Of a stretch of DNA of 11,471 bases, positions 1,201 through 7,857 are shown in pieces. How positions within the stretch are numbered: the stretch's first letter is position 1; every line of letters starts with the position of its first letter. Origin of the DNA: Bryobacterales bacterium (GTDB lineage Bacteria > Acidobacteriota > Terriglobia > Bryobacterales > Bryobacteraceae); assembly GCA_025353235.1 (NCBI GenBank), contig JANXQZ010000811.1, positions 1 to 11,471 on the forward strand, given 5' to 3'. The notes under the pieces were generated by a model, which saw only the letters and a program-made list of their open reading frames with translations, did not search any database and was not told the DNA's origin. The position numbers were made by a program, and so were the translations under genes.

Positions 1201-1209
1201 TGCTATAAT
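1201..1209 (+). promoter_or_regulatory. Extended -10 promoter for the sigma/anti-sigma/CHAT operon
   Basis: The string TGCTATAAT at 1201-1209 is a perfect extended -10 element (TGn plus TATAAT). No good -35 hexamer lies 16-18 nt upstream, as is usual when the extended -10 carries recognition. Transcription would begin near 1216, leaving a leader of about 28 nt before the ATG at 1244. About 100 bases upstream (1080-1180) are clearly richer in A and T than the neighbouring genes, which could help promoter opening. This suggests housekeeping-sigma transcription of the operon; a GTAACTT string at 1168-1174 is only a weak hint of an additional ECF-type site. Confidence 0.55.
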
Positions 1210-1243: not shown

Positions 1244-1819
1244 ATGAGCGCCTTCTCCTTCGACGAGAGTTACATCCAGAAACTTGCAGCCGGCGATCAG
1301 TCCGTAGTGGATCACTTCACGGCGTACTTCGGCACGCTCTTGCGCATTAAGCTCCGAACCAAACTGCGCTCTCATCAGATGATTGAAGATATCCGCCAGG
1401 ACACGTTCTTGCGGGTTCTCAGTTCTATCCGGAAGCGGGATGGGCTGCATAATCCGGAGCGCTTAGGCGGGTTTGTGAATTCAGTCTGCAATAACGTGAT
1501 GATGGAGCACTTCCGCGCCTCCACTCGACATCCGCAGATTCCAGAAGACGCGCCAGAGGTCGTCGATGAAGACGCCGATCCCACGCGAAACCTGGTCTCC
1601 GAAGAGAGAAAGCGTCTGGTGGAGCAGGTTCTCGATTCCATGCCTGTGAAAGATCGCGAGCTGCTTCGAATGGTGTATCTCGAGGAAAGAGGTAAGGATT
1701 TTATTTGCCGGGAATTAAGGGTAACGCCTGAGTACTACCGCGTACTCATACATCGGGCTAAGATGCGCTTTCGCGAAGTGCTCGGCAATGTTGGCCCGGA
1801 TGGCTCACCGAAATCTTAG
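1244..1819 (+). CDS. RNA polymerase sigma factor, sigma-70 family, ECF-like
   Basis: A 191-residue two-domain sigma factor. Region sigma-2 spans about residues 20-92, with the core-binding motif MIEDIRQDTFLRVLSSI at 46-62, and an acidic linker (about 99-118) follows. Region sigma-4 spans about 122-180, with a helix-turn-helix in the FICRELRVTPEYYRVLIHRA stretch. There is no sigma-3 or region 1.1, which fits the ECF group. The ATG at 1244 is preferred over one at 1220 because 1220 falls almost at the predicted transcription start of the extended -10 at 1201-1209, and the family usually starts just before the FDExYI-x-L segment. No strong Shine-Dalgarno is seen for either. The next gene encodes a zinc-motif membrane anti-sigma factor, so this sigma factor is presumably held inactive at the membrane until a signal arrives. 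Its target promoters are unknown. It leads a four-gene unit ending in a TPR-CHAT protease. Confidence 0.92.
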   Translation: MSAFSFDESYIQKLAAGDQSVVDHFTAYFGTLLRIKLRTKLRSHQMIEDIRQDTFLRVLSSIRKRDGLHNPERLGGFVNSVCNNVMMEHFRASTRHPQIPEDAPEVVDEDADPTRNLVSEERKRLVEQVLDSMPVKDRELLRMVYLEERGKDFICRELRVTPEYYRVLIHRAKMRFREVLGNVGPDGSPKS

Positions 1820-1882
1820 AATAAACAATTAAAATGAAACGGAATGGCTCCCGAAAACACAAGTACAAATGAGGGGATGAAG

Positions 1883-2560
1883 ATGGAACACGAAGATGCC
1901 ATTCGAATGCAGGCGATCTCGCGGTACCCTGCGGGCGACCTGTCCAAGGTGGAAGCCGAGGCTTTCGAACAGCATTTTTTTTCCTGCCAGCAATGCTCGG
2001 AGGAACTGGCCACGGGCGAAATCTTCGATGAGAACGTCCGTGCGGTATTTCATGACCGGGCTCGTGTTCCCGAAGCTGTCAGCGCGCCGCTCGTCCTTAC
2101 CGGACCGAGCTGGCTCGATCGGTTTCGTGCTTCGTTCGCGTTGCCCTTAACCGCCATGGCCGGCTTGCTGCTCGGCCTGGTGGTTTACCAGAACGCGTTC
2201 ATGCTTCCCGGCTTGCGCAAGGAGGTGGCGTCACTGGGTGAACCCCAGCCATTGACGGCCTTTCCGCTCAAGATTGCTCGCGAAAACAACTCCTTCCATC
2301 TCTCCAACCGGAGTCCGTTCTGGGTAGCTTACTTTTGGCTGCCCGATGCTTCCAGCTTTCCAAGCTATACCTGCGGCATCGAAAAAAGCGGAGGAGCTTC
2401 ACTTAAGACGGTGGCTCTGCCTAAACCAACTGCGGGGCAGCCGTTTAGCATTCTCTTGCGCCGCTCGGAATTTCCGTCCGGCACTTATGTGTTCAAAGTT
2501 CGCGGCCAAGATTCCAGCACCGTTATTGCAACTTACACAATCGACCTTAGCAGCTATTAG
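1883..2560 (+). CDS. Membrane-anchored zinc-motif anti-sigma factor
   Basis: A 225-residue protein with the usual anti-sigma layout. The N-terminal cytoplasmic domain (about residues 1-60) carries H31-x3-C35-x2-C38 (HFFSCQQC), the signature of the zinc-containing anti-sigma domain (zf-HC2/ZAS) that wraps the ECF sigma factor. One transmembrane segment lies at about residues 86-108 (LPLTAMAGLLLGLVVYQNAF). The remaining 115 or so residues should be periplasmic and look like a beta-sandwich (many alternating strands, ending GTYVFKVRG...YTIDLSSY); I do not recognise this domain. The start at 1883 is chosen because GAGGGG at 1871-1876 sits 6 nt upstream; in-frame ATGs at 1844 and 1877 are alternatives that only lengthen the N-terminus. 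The gene follows the sigma gene by 63 nt and its stop codon TAG forms part of the next gene's ribosome binding site. A periplasmic domain facing a CHAT lipoprotein of the same operon makes it a candidate protease target. Confidence 0.87.
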   Translation: MEHEDAIRMQAISRYPAGDLSKVEAEAFEQHFFSCQQCSEELATGEIFDENVRAVFHDRARVPEAVSAPLVLTGPSWLDRFRASFALPLTAMAGLLLGLVVYQNAFMLPGLRKEVASLGEPQPLTAFPLKIARENNSFHLSNRSPFWVAYFWLPDASSFPSYTCGIEKSGGASLKTVALPKPTAGQPFSILLRRSEFPSGTYVFKVRGQDSSTVIATYTIDLSSY

Positions 2561-2568
2561 GAGCCTTT

Positions 2569-2913
2569 ATGCAGCAGAGCGCGCCGGCATTCGGCAGACG
2601 CAACATCTTGATGAAGTATCCGCCCGCCTCGAATTCTTCTTGGCGGGTTCTTTTTTTTCCTCCGACTTTGTGCGGCGGGAGCGCCTCTTTCGCCTTTGAA
2701 GCGTCGACAGCCAACTGGCTGCGGACCTTAACTCCTAACCACCCGGCGATGCAGCTGAAAAGCGAGCCCACGCCTGGCAGTTCCCCGCCTCCAATTGGCG
2801 GAGGTGCCCAGAAGCCAAGTATCCCCCCGCCACCCGCAGATAATCCCTCATTCGACGATCCCGGCTTAAGTGAGCCCACTCCGGGTAGCTCGCCGCCTCC
2901 TACTGGTCCGTAA
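2569..2913 (+). CDS. Short proline-rich protein with an SEPTPGSSPPP repeat, function unknown
   Basis: An open frame of 114 codons, not a family I recognise. A Shine-Dalgarno AGGAG overlapping the stop of the anti-sigma gene lies 6 nt before its ATG, and its own stop is only 5 nt before the CHAT gene, so it fits the operon tightly. The first 60 residues are irregular. The last 54 are rich in proline, serine and glycine and contain two copies of SEPTPGSSPPP(I/T)G, at residues 65-77 and 101-113, with a PSIPPPPADNPSFDDPG linker between. The two copies differ at eight synonymous codon positions and one non-synonymous one, which is good evidence that the C-terminal part is selected as protein. The N-terminal part is less certain: it overlaps a terminator-like hairpin and T-run at 2623-2658 and has no clear signal peptide. 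Translation might instead start near the ATG at 2749. A flexible tail like this could be a linker, a protease substrate or a cell-wall-facing segment. Confidence 0.6.
   Translation: MQQSAPAFGRRNILMKYPPASNSSWRVLFFPPTLCGGSASFAFEASTANWLRTLTPNHPAMQLKSEPTPGSSPPPIGGGAQKPSIPPPPADNPSFDDPGLSEPTPGSSPPPTGP
2623..2658 (+). terminator. Intrinsic terminator-like hairpin inside the Pro-rich gene
   Basis: CCCGCC at 2623-2628 pairs perfectly with GGCGGG at 2642-2647 across a 13-nt loop, and is followed at once by TTCTTTTTTTT (2648-2658). This has the form of a Rho-independent terminator, with a rather large loop. It lies 63 nt after the anti-sigma stop codon and inside the third open frame. It could end most sigma/anti-sigma transcripts, or act as an attenuator that is opened when ribosomes translate the third gene. 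A chance run encoding Phe-Phe-Pro-Pro is the alternative. Confidence 0.5.
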
Positions 2914-2918
2914 ACAGA

Positions 2919-5402
2919 GTGAGTTCGATCCGCATACGTTCTTGGGCAGCGTCCCGACCTGCCCAAGGTCTCCTCCTGGCGGCGTTGATCAGCGCTTGCA
3001 CTCCCGGTCCATCCCTCGATTCCCGTTACAACCAGGCGCTGGCCCTCCGGAAAGAAGGCAAGCCCGAAGCCGCTCTCCGAATCATTGATAAAGCTTTGCC
3101 CGAAGCCGCGAGAAAATCGCCCGATCTTTACTGGAAATTGTATTTAAGAAAAGCGGAGCTTGTTCAACAGAACCTCGGTGGAGGACCGGCTTTGTCGTTC
3201 CTTCAGAAAGAACCGCCCCCAGGGGCTGAGTTCGCGAGTTTGCGTGGACAGGCAAAACAATTGCAAGGGTATGCGGAATTCACTCTTTCTAACTATGGCC
3301 AAGCGGAAGAGCGGCTGAAGGAGGCCAAGGTACTCGCTCAAACAGCGAACGACACCGGTCTTCTCACCAGTGTCGAGTTTCTGCAAGCTCGATTGTTGAG
3401 CCGCAGTGGAAAAGCTGCGGAAGCCGAAGCTCTGATCAACCATGCCGATCGGCTCGCAGTGGCCAATCATGATCGGGCACGAGAGAGTTACGGCCTGACA
3501 ACGCTGGCCCATCTGCTGATTACCCAGTCCCGTTACGAAGAGGCGGCGCTTTCGCTCGAGCGTGCGCTGTCCCGAATGGCCGACGCCGGAGATCGACCGC
3601 CACAAGCAGCGGCTTTGAACAGCCTTGGCATGTGTCTTTTTCGCCTGGGCGAGCTGGATCGCGCGCTCCTGACGTTCCAAAAAGCCCGCGATCTCGCGAC
3701 CCAAACGGGCGACACCCACAATCTGCAAGTCGCCCTTGGCAATACCGGAAATATTTATCTTGAGCGAAATGACTATCGAACAGCCGGGAGCTACTTCGAG
3801 CAGGCCCTCGCGCTCTCTGAGAAGCTGAACTCGCCGCTGACTACCGCGATCTGGCTGAGCAACCTTGCCACGGTCTCGATTGAAACCAAAGAGTGGGACC
3901 GGGCTTCCGCCTACAACCTCAGAGCGCTAAGCATGAAACAGCGCCTGCATGAACCGGATGGCGAGCTACATTCGCTAGTAAATTCTGCGCGAATCCTAGA
4001 AGGCCAGAAAAAAGAGGCGGAGGCGGAAGGTATCTTTCTAAAAGTCATGAATAGTCCCTCGAAGGATGCCGCCCCGTCGCTCTACGCGCATTCCGGACTG
4101 GCAAAGATGTACGCCAACCAGGGTCGGGATGCCCAGGCGGCGAAGGAGTTCGAGGCTGCTCTCCATGTGGTGGAGCAGACCCGCTCTACTCTCCACGCCG
4201 ACGAAACGAAAATGAATTTCCTGTCCAACCTGATGAATGTCTACGGAGATTACGTGGATTTTCTCATGGCGCGCGGGAAGACCGAACGAGCCCAGGAGGT
4301 GGCTGAAGCGAGCAGGAGCCGAAGCCTGCAGGAACGTCTTGGAGGGAGCGACGTAATTCGTCCCGTCAGCTCCGCCGAGTATCGCCAAGTTGCGCGCAGC
4401 ACTGGAGCGACGCTCATCTCTTATTGGCTGGGAGAGAAGCGCTCGTATGTGTGGTTAACAACCCCCGGGCAAGTGATCGCCTATCCCCTGCCACCTCGCG
4501 AAAAGCTGCGCCCGCTGATTGAAACTTATCGGGCGATGATCGAGAACCTGCACGATCCGCTGGACGTGGAAGATCCCACGGGACGCGAACTTTACGATGC
4601 TCTTTTGGGACCGGTAGCCGAACGCATACCCGCAGGGTGCAGACTCTACATCGTTCCAGACGGCGCGCTGCACGCGCTCAATTTCGAGACTCTTCCGGTA
4701 GCCTCGCCGAAGCTGCATTACTTCCTGGAAGACGCCACGATATCGGTTGTTCCGTCGCTGAATATGCTGGTAAAAAGAAATTCTGCGGTCAACCGTTCGG
4801 GGAAACTGCTCCTGATTGGCGATCCTAGCTTTACGAGCGATCGCTATCCGAAGCTGCCCTTTGCCGAGAACGAGATTGACCGGATCGAGAGTCATTTCGA
4901 GCGTTCCAAAGTTGCGGCGTATCGCAAAGCGGAAGCCGTTCCCGCTGTGTATCGGAAGGCTGCAGGCGATGAATACGCGTACGTTCACTTCACCGCGCAT
5001 GCAACTGCGAATCACGACGTTCCACTCGATTCCGCAATCATCCTGTCGGGCTTGAGCGGTCAGAACGAGCTTACGGCGCGGGACGTTCTTAAGAATCCTA
5101 TGCGGGCCAACCTGGTAACCATTTCAGCGTGCCGCGGAGCGGGCGCCAAGACCCTCGCCGGCGAAGGCTTGGTCGGCTTTATGTGGGCCTTCTTCGAGGC
5201 AGGCGCGCGGAACGTCGTCGCCGGATTGTGGGACGTGAGCGATGAATCCACTCCGCGGTTGATGGACCGGCTCTATGCAGGTCTTACCAGCAACGAATCT
5301 CCTGCAGAGGCTTTGCATGCCGCGAAGCTCGAGCTCATGAAGGCGAATCATACTTACAGGCTTCCCTACTATTGGGGGGCTTTTCAGTTGTATATCCGCT
5401 AG
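2919..5402 (+). CDS. TPR-CHAT caspase-like protease, predicted lipoprotein
   Basis: An 827-residue protein in three parts. Residues 1-27 are a lipoprotein signal: a basic start (SSIRIRSWAASR), a hydrophobic core (LLLAALISA) and the lipidation Cys27 (ISAC lipobox). Residues about 35-450 are tetratricopeptide repeats; clear units include ALNSLGMCLFRLGELDRALL (near 232) and LGNTGNIYLERNDYRTAGSY (near 273). Residues about 550-827 are a CHAT domain, starting near RLYIVPDGALHALNFETLP, with catalytic His694 in HFTAHA and Cys738 in TISACRGAGA, 44 residues apart as usual for the family, and a final LPYYWGAFQLYI motif. Both dyad residues are present, so it should be an active cysteine protease, tethered outside the cytoplasm; TPRs usually bind the trigger or substrate. 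The start is a GTG 5 nt after the preceding stop, chosen because it gives the complete signal; no strong Shine-Dalgarno is seen, so translational coupling is likely. Its substrate is unknown; the operon's anti-sigma factor and Pro-rich protein are the obvious candidates. Confidence 0.92.
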   Translation: MSSIRIRSWAASRPAQGLLLAALISACTPGPSLDSRYNQALALRKEGKPEAALRIIDKALPEAARKSPDLYWKLYLRKAELVQQNLGGGPALSFLQKEPPPGAEFASLRGQAKQLQGYAEFTLSNYGQAEERLKEAKVLAQTANDTGLLTSVEFLQARLLSRSGKAAEAEALINHADRLAVANHDRARESYGLTTLAHLLITQSRYEEAALSLERALSRMADAGDRPPQAAALNSLGMCLFRLGELDRALLTFQKARDLATQTGDTHNLQVALGNTGNIYLERNDYRTAGSYFEQALALSEKLNSPLTTAIWLSNLATVSIETKEWDRASAYNLRALSMKQRLHEPDGELHSLVNSARILEGQKKEAEAEGIFLKVMNSPSKDAAPSLYAHSGLAKMYANQGRDAQAAKEFEAALHVVEQTRSTLHADETKMNFLSNLMNVYGDYVDFLMARGKTERAQEVAEASRSRSLQERLGGSDVIRPVSSAEYRQVARSTGATLISYWLGEKRSYVWLTTPGQVIAYPLPPREKLRPLIETYRAMIENLHDPLDVEDPTGRELYDALLGPVAERIPAGCRLYIVPDGALHALNFETLPVASPKLHYFLEDATISVVPSLNMLVKRNSAVNRSGKLLLIGDPSFTSDRYPKLPFAENEIDRIESHFERSKVAAYRKAEAVPAVYRKAAGDEYAYVHFTAHATANHDVPLDSAIILSGLSGQNELTARDVLKNPMRANLVTISACRGAGAKTLAGEGLVGFMWAFFEAGARNVVAGLWDVSDESTPRLMDRLYAGLTSNESPAEALHAAKLELMKANHTYRLPYYWGAFQLYIR

Positions 5403-5619: not shown

Positions 5620-6518
5620 CATCGTGCCTTCGGGTGGGCGTTGTCATACACCCTCATCAAGTCCATCAGCGAAACCTGCGTGTACTTCTGAGTCGTCGAG
5701 AGCTGGCCGTGTCCAAGCAGCTCCTGAATCGAGCGCAGGTCGGCTCCATCGGAGAGAAGGTGCGTGGCATAGGCATGCCGAAGGCTGTGCGGATGCAGGC
5801 TCGAATCGCCGGTCAGCATGCTCGCATAGAACTTCACGATTTTTTGGGTTCCGCGAACCGTCAAGCGACCGCCTAGATGATTCAGCAGCAGCGCGTGCTC
5901 CTCGCTCGTTCGCCTGCGCGTTTGCAGATACCGAGTCAACGCGGATGCAGCTTTCGACCCAAATGGAATCTGCCGCTCTTTCCTGCCTTTGCCAAGCACC
6001 CGAATCCAGCGCTCCGAGTAATCGAAATCCTCTAGATTCAGCCCGACCAGTTCGCTGACGCGCACTCCGCAACCATACAGCAATTCGAAGATCAGCAGAT
6101 CGCGCTCCGGGTAGGGGCGTTCGAGTTTGTCTTCCGCCACCTGATCCACTAAGGAATTAGTTTGTTCCGCCGTGAGCACGCGCGGGAGCTTCTGCGGGGC
6201 TTTGGGAGTGCGCAGCAGCTTTGCGACATTCGTCGAAAAATCCCCCTCCCGCGTCAGAAACTTGCTGAAAGACCTGACAGCAGCCAGCTTCCGCCGCATC
6301 GAAACAGCGGAAAGATTTTGCTTGTAGAGATACCCCAGCCATTCCCGCAAAGCGAGAGTATCGATCTGGCCCATGGAAGGAGTCTCACCGCCGGGAGGGG
6401 AAAAATATTCGCGAAACTGCCCGAGATCGGAGGCATAATTCCGGATCGTGTGGGGGGACGCGTTCTCGCGCCGCAGTTGATCGAGGTAACGCTCGATCTG
6501 TCCCACGAGCTCAGGCAT
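5619..6518 (-). CDS. xerC: Tyrosine recombinase XerC
   Basis: Site-specific tyrosine recombinase; the family partner role is resolution of chromosome dimers at dif with XerD and FtsK. From the ATG at 6516-6518 it has 299 residues, the normal XerC length. An N-terminal SAM-like core-binding domain (about residues 1-90) precedes the catalytic domain (about 110-299). All catalytic residues are visible: Arg153 in GVRVSEL, Lys177 in GKGRKE, His244 and Arg247 in HSLRHAYATHL, His270 in LLGHGQLSTTQ, and the nucleophile Tyr279 in KYTQV. The frame stays open to an ATG at 6602, but the start at 6518 is preferred because it restores the usual length and overlaps the trmFO stop as ATGCCTGA, which suggests translational coupling. 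Linkage of trmFO and a xerC-like gene is also known from Bacillus (gid-codV), supporting a housekeeping role rather than a phage or island integrase. XerC and XerD are hard to separate by sequence alone. Confidence 0.93.
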   Translation of the reverse strand: MPELVGQIERYLDQLRRENASPHTIRNYASDLGQFREYFSPPGGETPSMGQIDTLALREWLGYLYKQNLSAVSMRRKLAAVRSFSKFLTREGDFSTNVAKLLRTPKAPQKLPRVLTAEQTNSLVDQVAEDKLERPYPERDLLIFELLYGCGVRVSELVGLNLEDFDYSERWIRVLGKGRKERQIPFGSKAASALTRYLQTRRRTSEEHALLLNHLGGRLTVRGTQKIVKFYASMLTGDSSLHPHSLRHAYATHLLSDGADLRSIQELLGHGQLSTTQKYTQVSLMDLMRVYDNAHPKAR

Positions 6519-7857
6519 GGGCTTCGGCGCGAGCTTCCAGATATCCGGCAAGTCCTGCCAGCGCGCGTCGGCAGACCTCGGCATGGCGGGCCTTCTTGTC
6601 ATGCCGGAATTTGCGGCGGGTTTCTTCGTCCAAGGCTGGCAGGAGATCGAAAGTGATGTTGGCGGGCTGATAATCGCGTGGGTCGGCGCATGAGACGTAC
6701 TCGCATAGCGAACCCAAGGCCGTCTCTCGCGGAAATGGCCGGACTGCTTCGCCGCGCGCTAGCGACACCGCATGACGGCCCGCCGTCAGCCCCGTCGCGA
6801 TCGACTCAACGTAGCCTTCCACCCCGCAAATCTGGCCTGCAAAAAACACCTGCGGTCGATTCCGCAAGTGCAAGGCGCGGCTCAACAGCATCGGCCCATT
6901 GATATAAGTGTTGCGGTGAATCTGCCCATAGCGGAGAAACTCGGCTTTTTCAAGCCCGGGAATCAGGCGTAGGATGCGCTGCTGCTCGCCGAAGCGCATG
7001 TGATTCTGAAACCCGACCAGGTTGTAGCTGTCGGCCCGCAGGTTCTCTTGTCTTAGTTGCACCGCCGCATACGGCCAGCGACCCGTGCGCGGATCCGTGA
7101 GCCCCACTGGTTTCATCGGTCCGAATCGCAGCGTGTCGCGTCCCCGCCGTGCGATCTCTTCAATGGGCAAACACGCTTCGAAGAACGGAGTTTGATCTTC
7201 TGGAATGTGGGCGGGCACGCTTTGGCCGCCGAGCAACTCATCCACGAAGCGCTCGTACTCTGCCTTGTTGAAGGGGCAGTTCAAGTAATCGTCGCTGCCG
7301 TCCAGCGACTTGCCATAGCGTGAGGCGCGAAAGGCGATAGACGTATCGATGCTTTCGGCGTCCACGATAGGGCTGATGCTGTCATAGAAAAACAGGCGGT
7401 CCGATCCGGTGATGCGCGCGATTTCGGCCGCGAGGCTGCCGCTGGTGAGCGGACCGGTGGCGATGATGCAGATGCCGTCGTTCGGGAGCGTTTTCACCTC
7501 CTCGCGGCGCAGATCGATCATTGGGTTCGTTTTGCAAAAACGCGTAATCTCCTGGGCGAAGACTTCCCGATCAACCGTGAGAGCGTGGCCACCGGGGACC
7601 CTTGCCGTTCGCGCGGCCTCCAGCAAAAACGAACCCAAACGCCTCAGTTCCTCTTTTAATAACCAGGGGGCGCTGTTCTCCGATTCGCTCTTGAGGGAAT
7701 TGCTGCAAACCAATTCGCCTAGCTGGTCGGTCTTGTGCGCGGCGGTCTGAACCGCGGGACGCATTTCATAGAGGCGGCAGGGAATACCGGCTCGCGCGAC
7801 CTGGAGCGCAGCTTCGCAACCTGCCAATCCGCCGCCAATGATGTGAATAGGAACCAC
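6511..7857 (-). CDS. trmFO: Methylenetetrahydrofolate-tRNA-(uracil-5-)-methyltransferase TrmFO
   Basis: Folate- and FAD-dependent enzyme that makes 5-methyluridine at position 54 in the T-loop of tRNA, using methylenetetrahydrofolate instead of S-adenosylmethionine. From the GTG at 7855-7857 it has 448 residues, as usual for the family. The FAD-binding GGGLAGCEAA lies at residues 8-17, followed by LYEMRP, ELVCSNSLKSE with Cys51, YLNCPFNKAEYERF, FFEACLPIEEIARRG with Cys229, and the C-terminal GQICGVEGYVESIATGL FAD motif. Cys51 and Cys229 correspond to the two essential cysteines known in Bacillus TrmFO (53 and 226). The frame stays open back to 8172, but that extension runs through the divergent cyclotransferase gene and has no family similarity; GAAGG just before the GTG supports the chosen start. 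It is the first gene of a two-gene unit with xerC. Confidence 0.95.
   Translation of the reverse strand: MVPIHIIGGGLAGCEAALQVARAGIPCRLYEMRPAVQTAAHKTDQLGELVCSNSLKSESENSAPWLLKEELRRLGSFLLEAARTARVPGGHALTVDREVFAQEITRFCKTNPMIDLRREEVKTLPNDGICIIATGPLTSGSLAAEIARITGSDRLFFYDSISPIVDAESIDTSIAFRASRYGKSLDGSDDYLNCPFNKAEYERFVDELLGGQSVPAHIPEDQTPFFEACLPIEEIARRGRDTLRFGPMKPVGLTDPRTGRWPYAAVQLRQENLRADSYNLVGFQNHMRFGEQQRILRLIPGLEKAEFLRYGQIHRNTYINGPMLLSRALHLRNRPQVFFAGQICGVEGYVESIATGLTAGRHAVSLARGEAVRPFPRETALGSLCEYVSCADPRDYQPANITFDLLPALDEETRRKFRHDKKARHAEVCRRALAGLAGYLEARAEAHA

Follow-up and report, generated by a model that had tools for sequence, protein, structure and literature searches.

The 11,471-nucleotide stretch of Bryobacterales DNA analysed here (contig JANXQZ010000811.1, referred to below in its entirety as the window) carries four closely spaced open reading frames (ORFs) on one strand, encoding an extracytoplasmic function (ECF) sigma factor, its membrane anti-sigma factor, a small proline-rich protein, and a TPR-CHAT protein predicted to be a lipoprotein. 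An earlier note had taken these genes for a possible CRISPR-free protease switch acting on a sigma factor. All four are present as that note described them, with gaps of 63, 8, and 5 nt when the anti-sigma start is placed at 1883, and the locus belongs to what is probably a signalling unit conserved among Acidobacteriota. Its features are as follows, all on the forward strand:

1201..1209, +, extended -10-like element TG-C-TATAAT (TGCTATAAT), 34 nt ahead of the sigma start codon
1244..1819, +, ECF sigma factor, 191 aa (NCBIfam TIGR02937)
1883..2560, +, anti-sigma factor with ZAS domain, single membrane helix and immunoglobulin (Ig)-like outer domain; an alternative, longer start lies at 1844
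1973..1996, +, HxxxCxxC zinc motif of the ZAS domain
2279..2281, +, codon of Arg146 (numbered from 1844), the likely equivalent of an Arg-Gly conserved in relatives, here Arg-Glu
2569..2913, +, small Pro-rich ORF, 114 aa, occupying the usual place of a different, "middle" gene
2623..2658, +, terminator-like hairpin with T-run (T8) within the Pro-rich ORF
2919..5402, +, TPR-CHAT lipoprotein, 827 aa
2988..2999, +, lipobox ISAC with predicted lipidated Cys27
4575..5393, +, CHAT protease domain (Pfam PF12770, residues 553-825)
4998..5000, +, catalytic His694
5130..5132, +, catalytic Cys738

The sigma factor scores 60.8 bits against the NCBIfam sigma70-ECF superfamily (cut-off 42.9), its Pfam region 2 and region 4 matches lying slightly below their cut-offs. 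Its neighbour has the make-up of canonical membrane ZAS anti-sigmas, namely an HxxxCxxC ZAS domain, a single membrane-spanning helix, and an outer domain, which in an AlphaFold2 model follows the helix as an Ig-like beta-sandwich. The zf-HC2 match of 21.7 bits is slightly below the 22.2 cut-off; the histidine and both cysteines of the motif are kept in all 105 full-length anti-sigmas aligned (57/58 in an earlier set). The start at 1883 is supported by the methionine found at that column in 91% of the 105 homologues.

The last gene encodes a PF12770 CHAT domain (189 bits, cut-off 24) preceded by TPRs (TPR_12, 89 bits), and was aligned with 19 orthologous relatives. The His-Cys dyad that the earlier note had pointed out is intact and correctly numbered. 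Across 79 CHATs the cysteine is invariant, and 78 have the histidine; the remaining one, from locus L117, shows a gap there, in a gene split over two frames. The lipoprotein signal, also claimed from the outset, ends at Cys27; with the lipobox scored by its aligned Cys column and every N-terminus listed, a cysteine occupies that column in 75/79 CHATs and the remaining four still have a hydrophobic N-terminus, so that the predicted export signal appears to be conserved. In sequence the CHAT part comes nearest, among solved proteins, to separases, with a non-significant E of ~0.35.

Whether CHAT is linked to sigma and anti-sigma genes in related genomes was the check that the earlier note had proposed, and the linkage passed it widely. 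A CHAT-anchored sample gave 22 loci, 19 of them with E <1e-85 (two being paralogues from the same genome). In all 19 the anti-sigma gene adjoins CHAT with one extra gene in between, and a sigma gene orthologous to that of the window is present in 16; of the other three, L051 is cut by a contig end, and at L054 and L056 no sigma was found. The weaker CHAT matches L062-L064 (E 2.5e-58 to 2.5e-40) showed neither sigma nor anti-sigma by tblastn, L062 being broken and at a contig start. A profile of the intervening, middle gene then matched 76/299 genomes of the class and 18/297 of a phylum sample, seven of the latter outside the class. With the matches in G312:C98 and G235 left out, this search added 78 loci to the 19, for a total of 97, among which sister species contribute some near-copies. 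Because the first 19 loci supplied the profiles for sigma, anti-sigma, and CHAT, they match by construction; the other 78 do not.

Sigma, anti-sigma, middle gene, and CHAT follow in that order on one strand at 81 of these 97 loci, and the complete set is found in five of the class's families as well as, beyond the class, in the four genomes G344, G392, G486, and G586. Among the 16 exceptions, seven lack only sigma, five lack sigma together with an upstream anti-sigma, three have only the middle gene in the arrangement, and one lacks CHAT. Contig ends truncate seven of them (L051, L115, L132, L149, L159, L165, and L170). Anti-sigma, middle gene, and CHAT are kept together with no detectable sigma gene beside them at L054, L056, and L154. 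The anti-sigma gene lies after CHAT at L104 and L106 and on the opposite strand at L113, as do both anti-sigma and CHAT at L164, with sigma undetected by profile in all four; L163 retains middle gene and CHAT only, and L174 the middle gene alone. Anti-sigma and CHAT also stay together where the middle gene is missing, in the window and at L216. By these counts the four-gene linkage is real and deeply conserved in Acidobacteriota.

The same pair recurs in a second gene order. An anti-sigma profile search of 41 genomes returned 93 matches, 39 of them full-span (at least 150 of 224 positions). A CHAT gene lies in the fetched stretch for 32 of the 39: 16 belong to the first arrangement, the kind from which the profile was made, and 16 of the remaining 23 all read CHAT-sigma-anti-sigma, with no middle gene and the same Ig-type anti-sigma. 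Loci of this second type are L015, L039, L040, L044, L241, L242, L261-L272, and L275, L266 being more divergent. Their 19 CHATs keep the histidine in 18 (the other is truncated) and the cysteine in all 19, and 12 of the 13 full-length ones have a hydrophobic N-terminus. For 18 of the 54 shorter anti-sigma matches the surrounding DNA was fetched, and a same-strand CHAT was seen in three (L272, L273, and, some 1.8 kb off, L274), each chosen because a nearby CHAT was already known; at L259 CHAT is matched weakly, and on the opposite strand.

The window's own assembly (5.3 Mb, 89.5% complete) holds two further copies of the unit, both with the middle gene, on contigs C211 and C1240, and one CHAT-sigma-anti-sigma unit on contig C1076 (L015). 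It also contains another sigma of the same type (L247, G000:C311; E 5e-75) adjoining an anti-sigma gene (~5001-5294) whose frame ends shortly past the membrane segment; this may be a copy that has decayed or whose frame is broken.

CHAT genes at large provide the control; up to 21 TPR-CHAT matches were seen in a single genome. Of 36 other CHAT loci, four were repeats, leaving 32 distinct ones, seven with only 1.5 kb of flank. A same-strand sigma or anti-sigma was found at 11, several by weak matches and four being instances of the second arrangement; three had one on the opposite strand only, and 18 had none. At L014 and L192, CHAT immediately follows an ECF-like sigma of a different sort, with no anti-sigma between them, which resembles the ECF54 loci of PMC8999054.

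Functional coupling of the exported TPR-CHAT protein with the Ig-type ZAS anti-sigma is, in our estimation, very probable. In favor of the mechanism outlined below are the conserved gene order, the persistence of the pair without sigma or without the middle gene, its recurrence in an independent arrangement, the dyad and hydrophobic N-terminus kept in both arrangements, and the compartment that the two proteins would share.

It is at the third position that the window departs from its relatives. Elsewhere this place is held by the middle gene, whose product is an all-beta protein of 240-290 aa in which neither signal peptide nor anchor was seen. It stands immediately upstream of CHAT at 62 of the 64 orthologous family loci with readable upstream DNA and is missing only from the window and L216 (= L238), two losses that according to the tree took place independently. 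The middle protein ends in a conserved Gly-rich tail, with NG within the last 14 residues in 83/111 proteins. Among named genomes, one middle protein used as query found four loci (Candidatus Sulfopaludibacter, Acidobacteriales or Acidobacteria); the window's CHAT protein found no relative in the same scan. The middle protein of the Candidatus Sulfopaludibacter MAG is identical to that of G004, a relative with the four-gene unit, and with the three other named MAGs this points to Acidobacteriota as the phylum. At L046 (reverse-complement orientation) middle genes stand in tandem, at 6218-6778 and 7047-7793, the first apparently truncated.

The Pro-rich ORF of the window has a good Shine-Dalgarno sequence (AGGAG, 2559-2563) ahead of its ATG at 2569; searches of Pfam, NCBIfam, and PADLOC at E 0.1 returned nothing for it. 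Outside the window it has nothing but weak matches of low complexity, in 9 of the family's 149 other genomes and mostly interrupted by stops. We therefore rejected it as an important fourth component, given that it also stands where relatives keep a conserved gene; from the comparison of loci, the Pro-rich protein is a local peculiarity of the window and not a conserved partner. At L216/L238 (3103-3321 of L238, reverse-complement orientation) the middle gene is replaced by a 72-aa ORF with two GGGSSGGGG repeats. Common descent of its Gly-rich tail and that of the Pro-rich ORF (LKSEPTPGSSPPP versus LKAEEGGGSSGGGG) was considered and rejected, the match being short and of low complexity and the losses independent. 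The hairpin within the Pro-rich ORF has a minimum free energy of -16.3 kcal/mol (z -2.2), a stability that 9 of 200 shuffled sequences also reach. The terminator scanner, whose loop limit is 8, does not list it, and a hairpin-plus-T-run pattern of our own found none between anti-sigma and CHAT at 87 other loci. Were the ORF untranslated, this hairpin might reduce CHAT expression.

TATAAT or TATACT occurs within 100 nt upstream of the start of the sigma profile match at 33 of 88 loci, versus 1.28 expected by shuffling, and with a slightly wider hexamer set 53 of 58 hexamers fall 15-44 nt upstream of that start. In the hexamer test this housekeeping-type -10 was the sole strongly enriched element, and the window carries one in extended form, although a promoter scan of the window called no promoter ahead of sigma. 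Because the hexamer is both enriched and clustered in this way, basal vegetative transcription of sigma combined with post-translational control is suggested; a vegetative -10 here suggests a pre-armed switch. ECF autoregulation of the sigma gene was rejected on the same result, which covers hexamers alone, so that a two-part ECF promoter may escape it.

A mechanism consistent with these observations can be outlined. The ECF sigma factor would be held at the membrane by the ZAS anti-sigma, whose Ig-like domain would lie outside the inner membrane, in the same compartment as the TPR-CHAT cysteine protease, itself a predicted exported lipoprotein. The TPR array would read a cue, upon which CHAT would cut (or otherwise gate) the anti-sigma outside the membrane in a site-1 role, and ordinary intramembrane and cytoplasmic proteolysis would then release sigma. 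The middle gene product might serve as a modulator, cue carrier, or output, but hardly as an obligate substrate. Of this scheme we infer the cue, the cutting itself, where it takes place, and the proteolysis that follows, and proteolysis of the anti-sigma by CHAT as the switch itself seems to us evenly poised between true and false.

The segment joining the membrane helix to the Ig-like domain offers a possible site of attack. It is variable save for a few prolines and an Arg-Gly (R in 88 and G in 87 of 105 aligned anti-sigmas). The Arg-Gly is present in 18 of 21 anti-sigmas from CHAT-linked loci outside the first-type set and in 2 of 7 unlinked full-span anti-sigmas, a comparison devised after the motif had been noticed and with an unlinked group of mixed architectures. 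For those two reasons we reject any claim of a proven cleavage site; the Arg-Gly may be a candidate cleavage or docking site, and a structural turn is equally likely.

Several observations weigh against a switch in which CHAT cuts the anti-sigma. The conserved operon is also compatible with CHAT as merely a regulated product. Seven of the 39 full-span anti-sigmas have no nearby CHAT, although two of these (L243 and L258) sit at contig edges and three (L245, L257, and L278) do not look Ig-like past the membrane helix. At 21 of the 32 control loci, some with 1.5 kb of flank, CHAT has no same-strand sigma or anti-sigma, so that the link must be limited to particular CHAT lineages. The Arg-Gly, for its part, occupies a turn at the margin of the Ig-like domain, close to its first strand, and is perhaps structural, and the two CHAT-less full-span anti-sigmas that carry it are both at contig edges.

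The first of these points can be built into an explanation of its own, in which sigma and anti-sigma control an exported protease acting on cell-surface or foreign proteins, and linkage reflects co-transcription. ECF operons often contain their effectors, and the operon structure and CHAT export signal are what such an output would show; yet CHAT occurs in two gene orders with the same anti-sigma type, in one of them upstream of sigma, and anti-sigma and CHAT are kept together where sigma is not found, so we regard this explanation as rather unlikely. CHAT might instead cleave the middle protein (or the Pro-rich one) in the manner of Csx30 or a gasdermin, the product then signaling or forming pores. 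The middle gene's place directly upstream of CHAT (62/64) and the conserved NG tail (83/111) speak for such a substrate, and the earlier note had named the small protein as one. The Pro-rich protein is found in the window only, however, and its usual counterpart, unlike the protease, shows no export signal; moreover, neither the window, nor one further orthologous locus, nor the CHAT-sigma-anti-sigma units have that counterpart. The small or middle protein is therefore unlikely to be an obligate substrate, and we hold the whole alternative to be improbable. Of the two substrates that the note had proposed, the anti-sigma is the best candidate. TPR arrays bind proteins, and CHAT could act as a non-proteolytic sensor or scaffold bound to the Ig-like domain. 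TPR-CHAT is described in PMC11089037 as a regulator that binds Cas7-11. The near-invariance of the dyad (His 78/79 and Cys 79/79; 18/19 and 19/19 in the second arrangement) argues against a purely binding role, to which we assign only a slight chance.

Returning to anti-sigma cleavage by CHAT, we would tentatively put it in its fullest form as follows, with somewhat more doubt than belief: a caspase-like lipoprotease makes the first cut in Ig-type ZAS anti-sigmas on cue, perhaps at the Arg-Gly turn, in a CRISPR-independent system with two arrangements and at least four copies in the window's genome, to which Craspase is a cytoplasmic parallel. If so, caspase-family proteases would initiate sigma release by acting outside the inner membrane. 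To our knowledge this role is otherwise known solely from proteases of other classes, for example the serine protease DegS. Bacterial TPR-CHAT proteins would gain a testable job, and the pairing of a CHAT protease with a sigma inhibitor in Craspase would be an instance of a wider design that does not depend on CRISPR. Mutations could be aimed directly at the conserved dyad, the Arg-Gly turn, and the Ig-type anti-sigmas. The observation with which the earlier note began is confirmed and its interpretation supported in part: linkage, export signal, and dyad stand, the small protein is unlikely as obligate substrate, and the Craspase parallel is one of logic.

Two of six middle proteins score above the 27-bit cut-off of the NCBIfam choice-of-anchor P family (NF040603), three fall below it, and one is unmatched; no signal peptide or anchor was seen in the middle proteins, and the window has no middle gene. 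Bacterial gasdermins, too, are proteins of ~250 residues encoded beside a CHAT-type protease. Among solved structures, PDB 8rot_B (991 aa, "CHAT domain-containing protein"; related entry 8rw5) gives a match to the anti-sigma profile at E 0.0049, over residues 15-117, a stretch that includes HLADCEKC and a membrane-like segment. If the deposited name is right, this protein is possibly a natural anti-sigma/CHAT fusion; no ZAS-membrane helix-CHAT fusion occurs among the 231 distinct CHAT frames of the loci examined.

In Craspase, a TPR-CHAT protease is tied to an ECF-like sigma and its inhibitor, and cutting of the inhibitor is proposed to free sigma (PMC10028731). A TPR-CHAT gene is here likewise tied to an ECF sigma and its inhibitor, and, as the earlier note had held, the parts occur without CRISPR: the window has no CRISPR-like array and the 89.5% complete genome no Cas1, Cas7-11 itself not having been searched. 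The parallel that the note drew survives as logic. It does not extend to sequence, the window's CHAT scoring 13 bits against the Csx29 profile NF041237 (cut-off 300), nor to compartment, this CHAT being a predicted exported lipoprotein, nor to the inhibitor, an ordinary ZAS membrane anti-sigma and not Csx30. Near ECF54 genes, PMC8999054 describes CHAT, subtilase, or carboxypeptidase domain genes, with proteolytic control proposed and ECF54 thought to work without an anti-sigma. In contrast to that description, a ZAS anti-sigma adjoins sigma here and is the most constant partner of CHAT. As far as such comparisons indicate, the locus is neither Craspase nor canonical ECF54, and we found no description of this unit in the open-licence literature searched.

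In the regulated intramembrane proteolysis of RseA (by DegS and RseP) and of RsiW, a protease on the outer side of the membrane attacks the anti-sigma first, and M50 and cytoplasmic proteases follow, a sequence set out in part in PMC10028731. The order proposed here for a membrane anti-sigma is the same, and the window's genome has M50 site-2-type proteases with matches above cut-off, among which RseP is not distinguished from other M50 proteins. What would set the Acidobacteriota unit apart is the site-1 candidate, a clan CD cysteine lipoprotein with TPRs in place of a PDZ serine protease.

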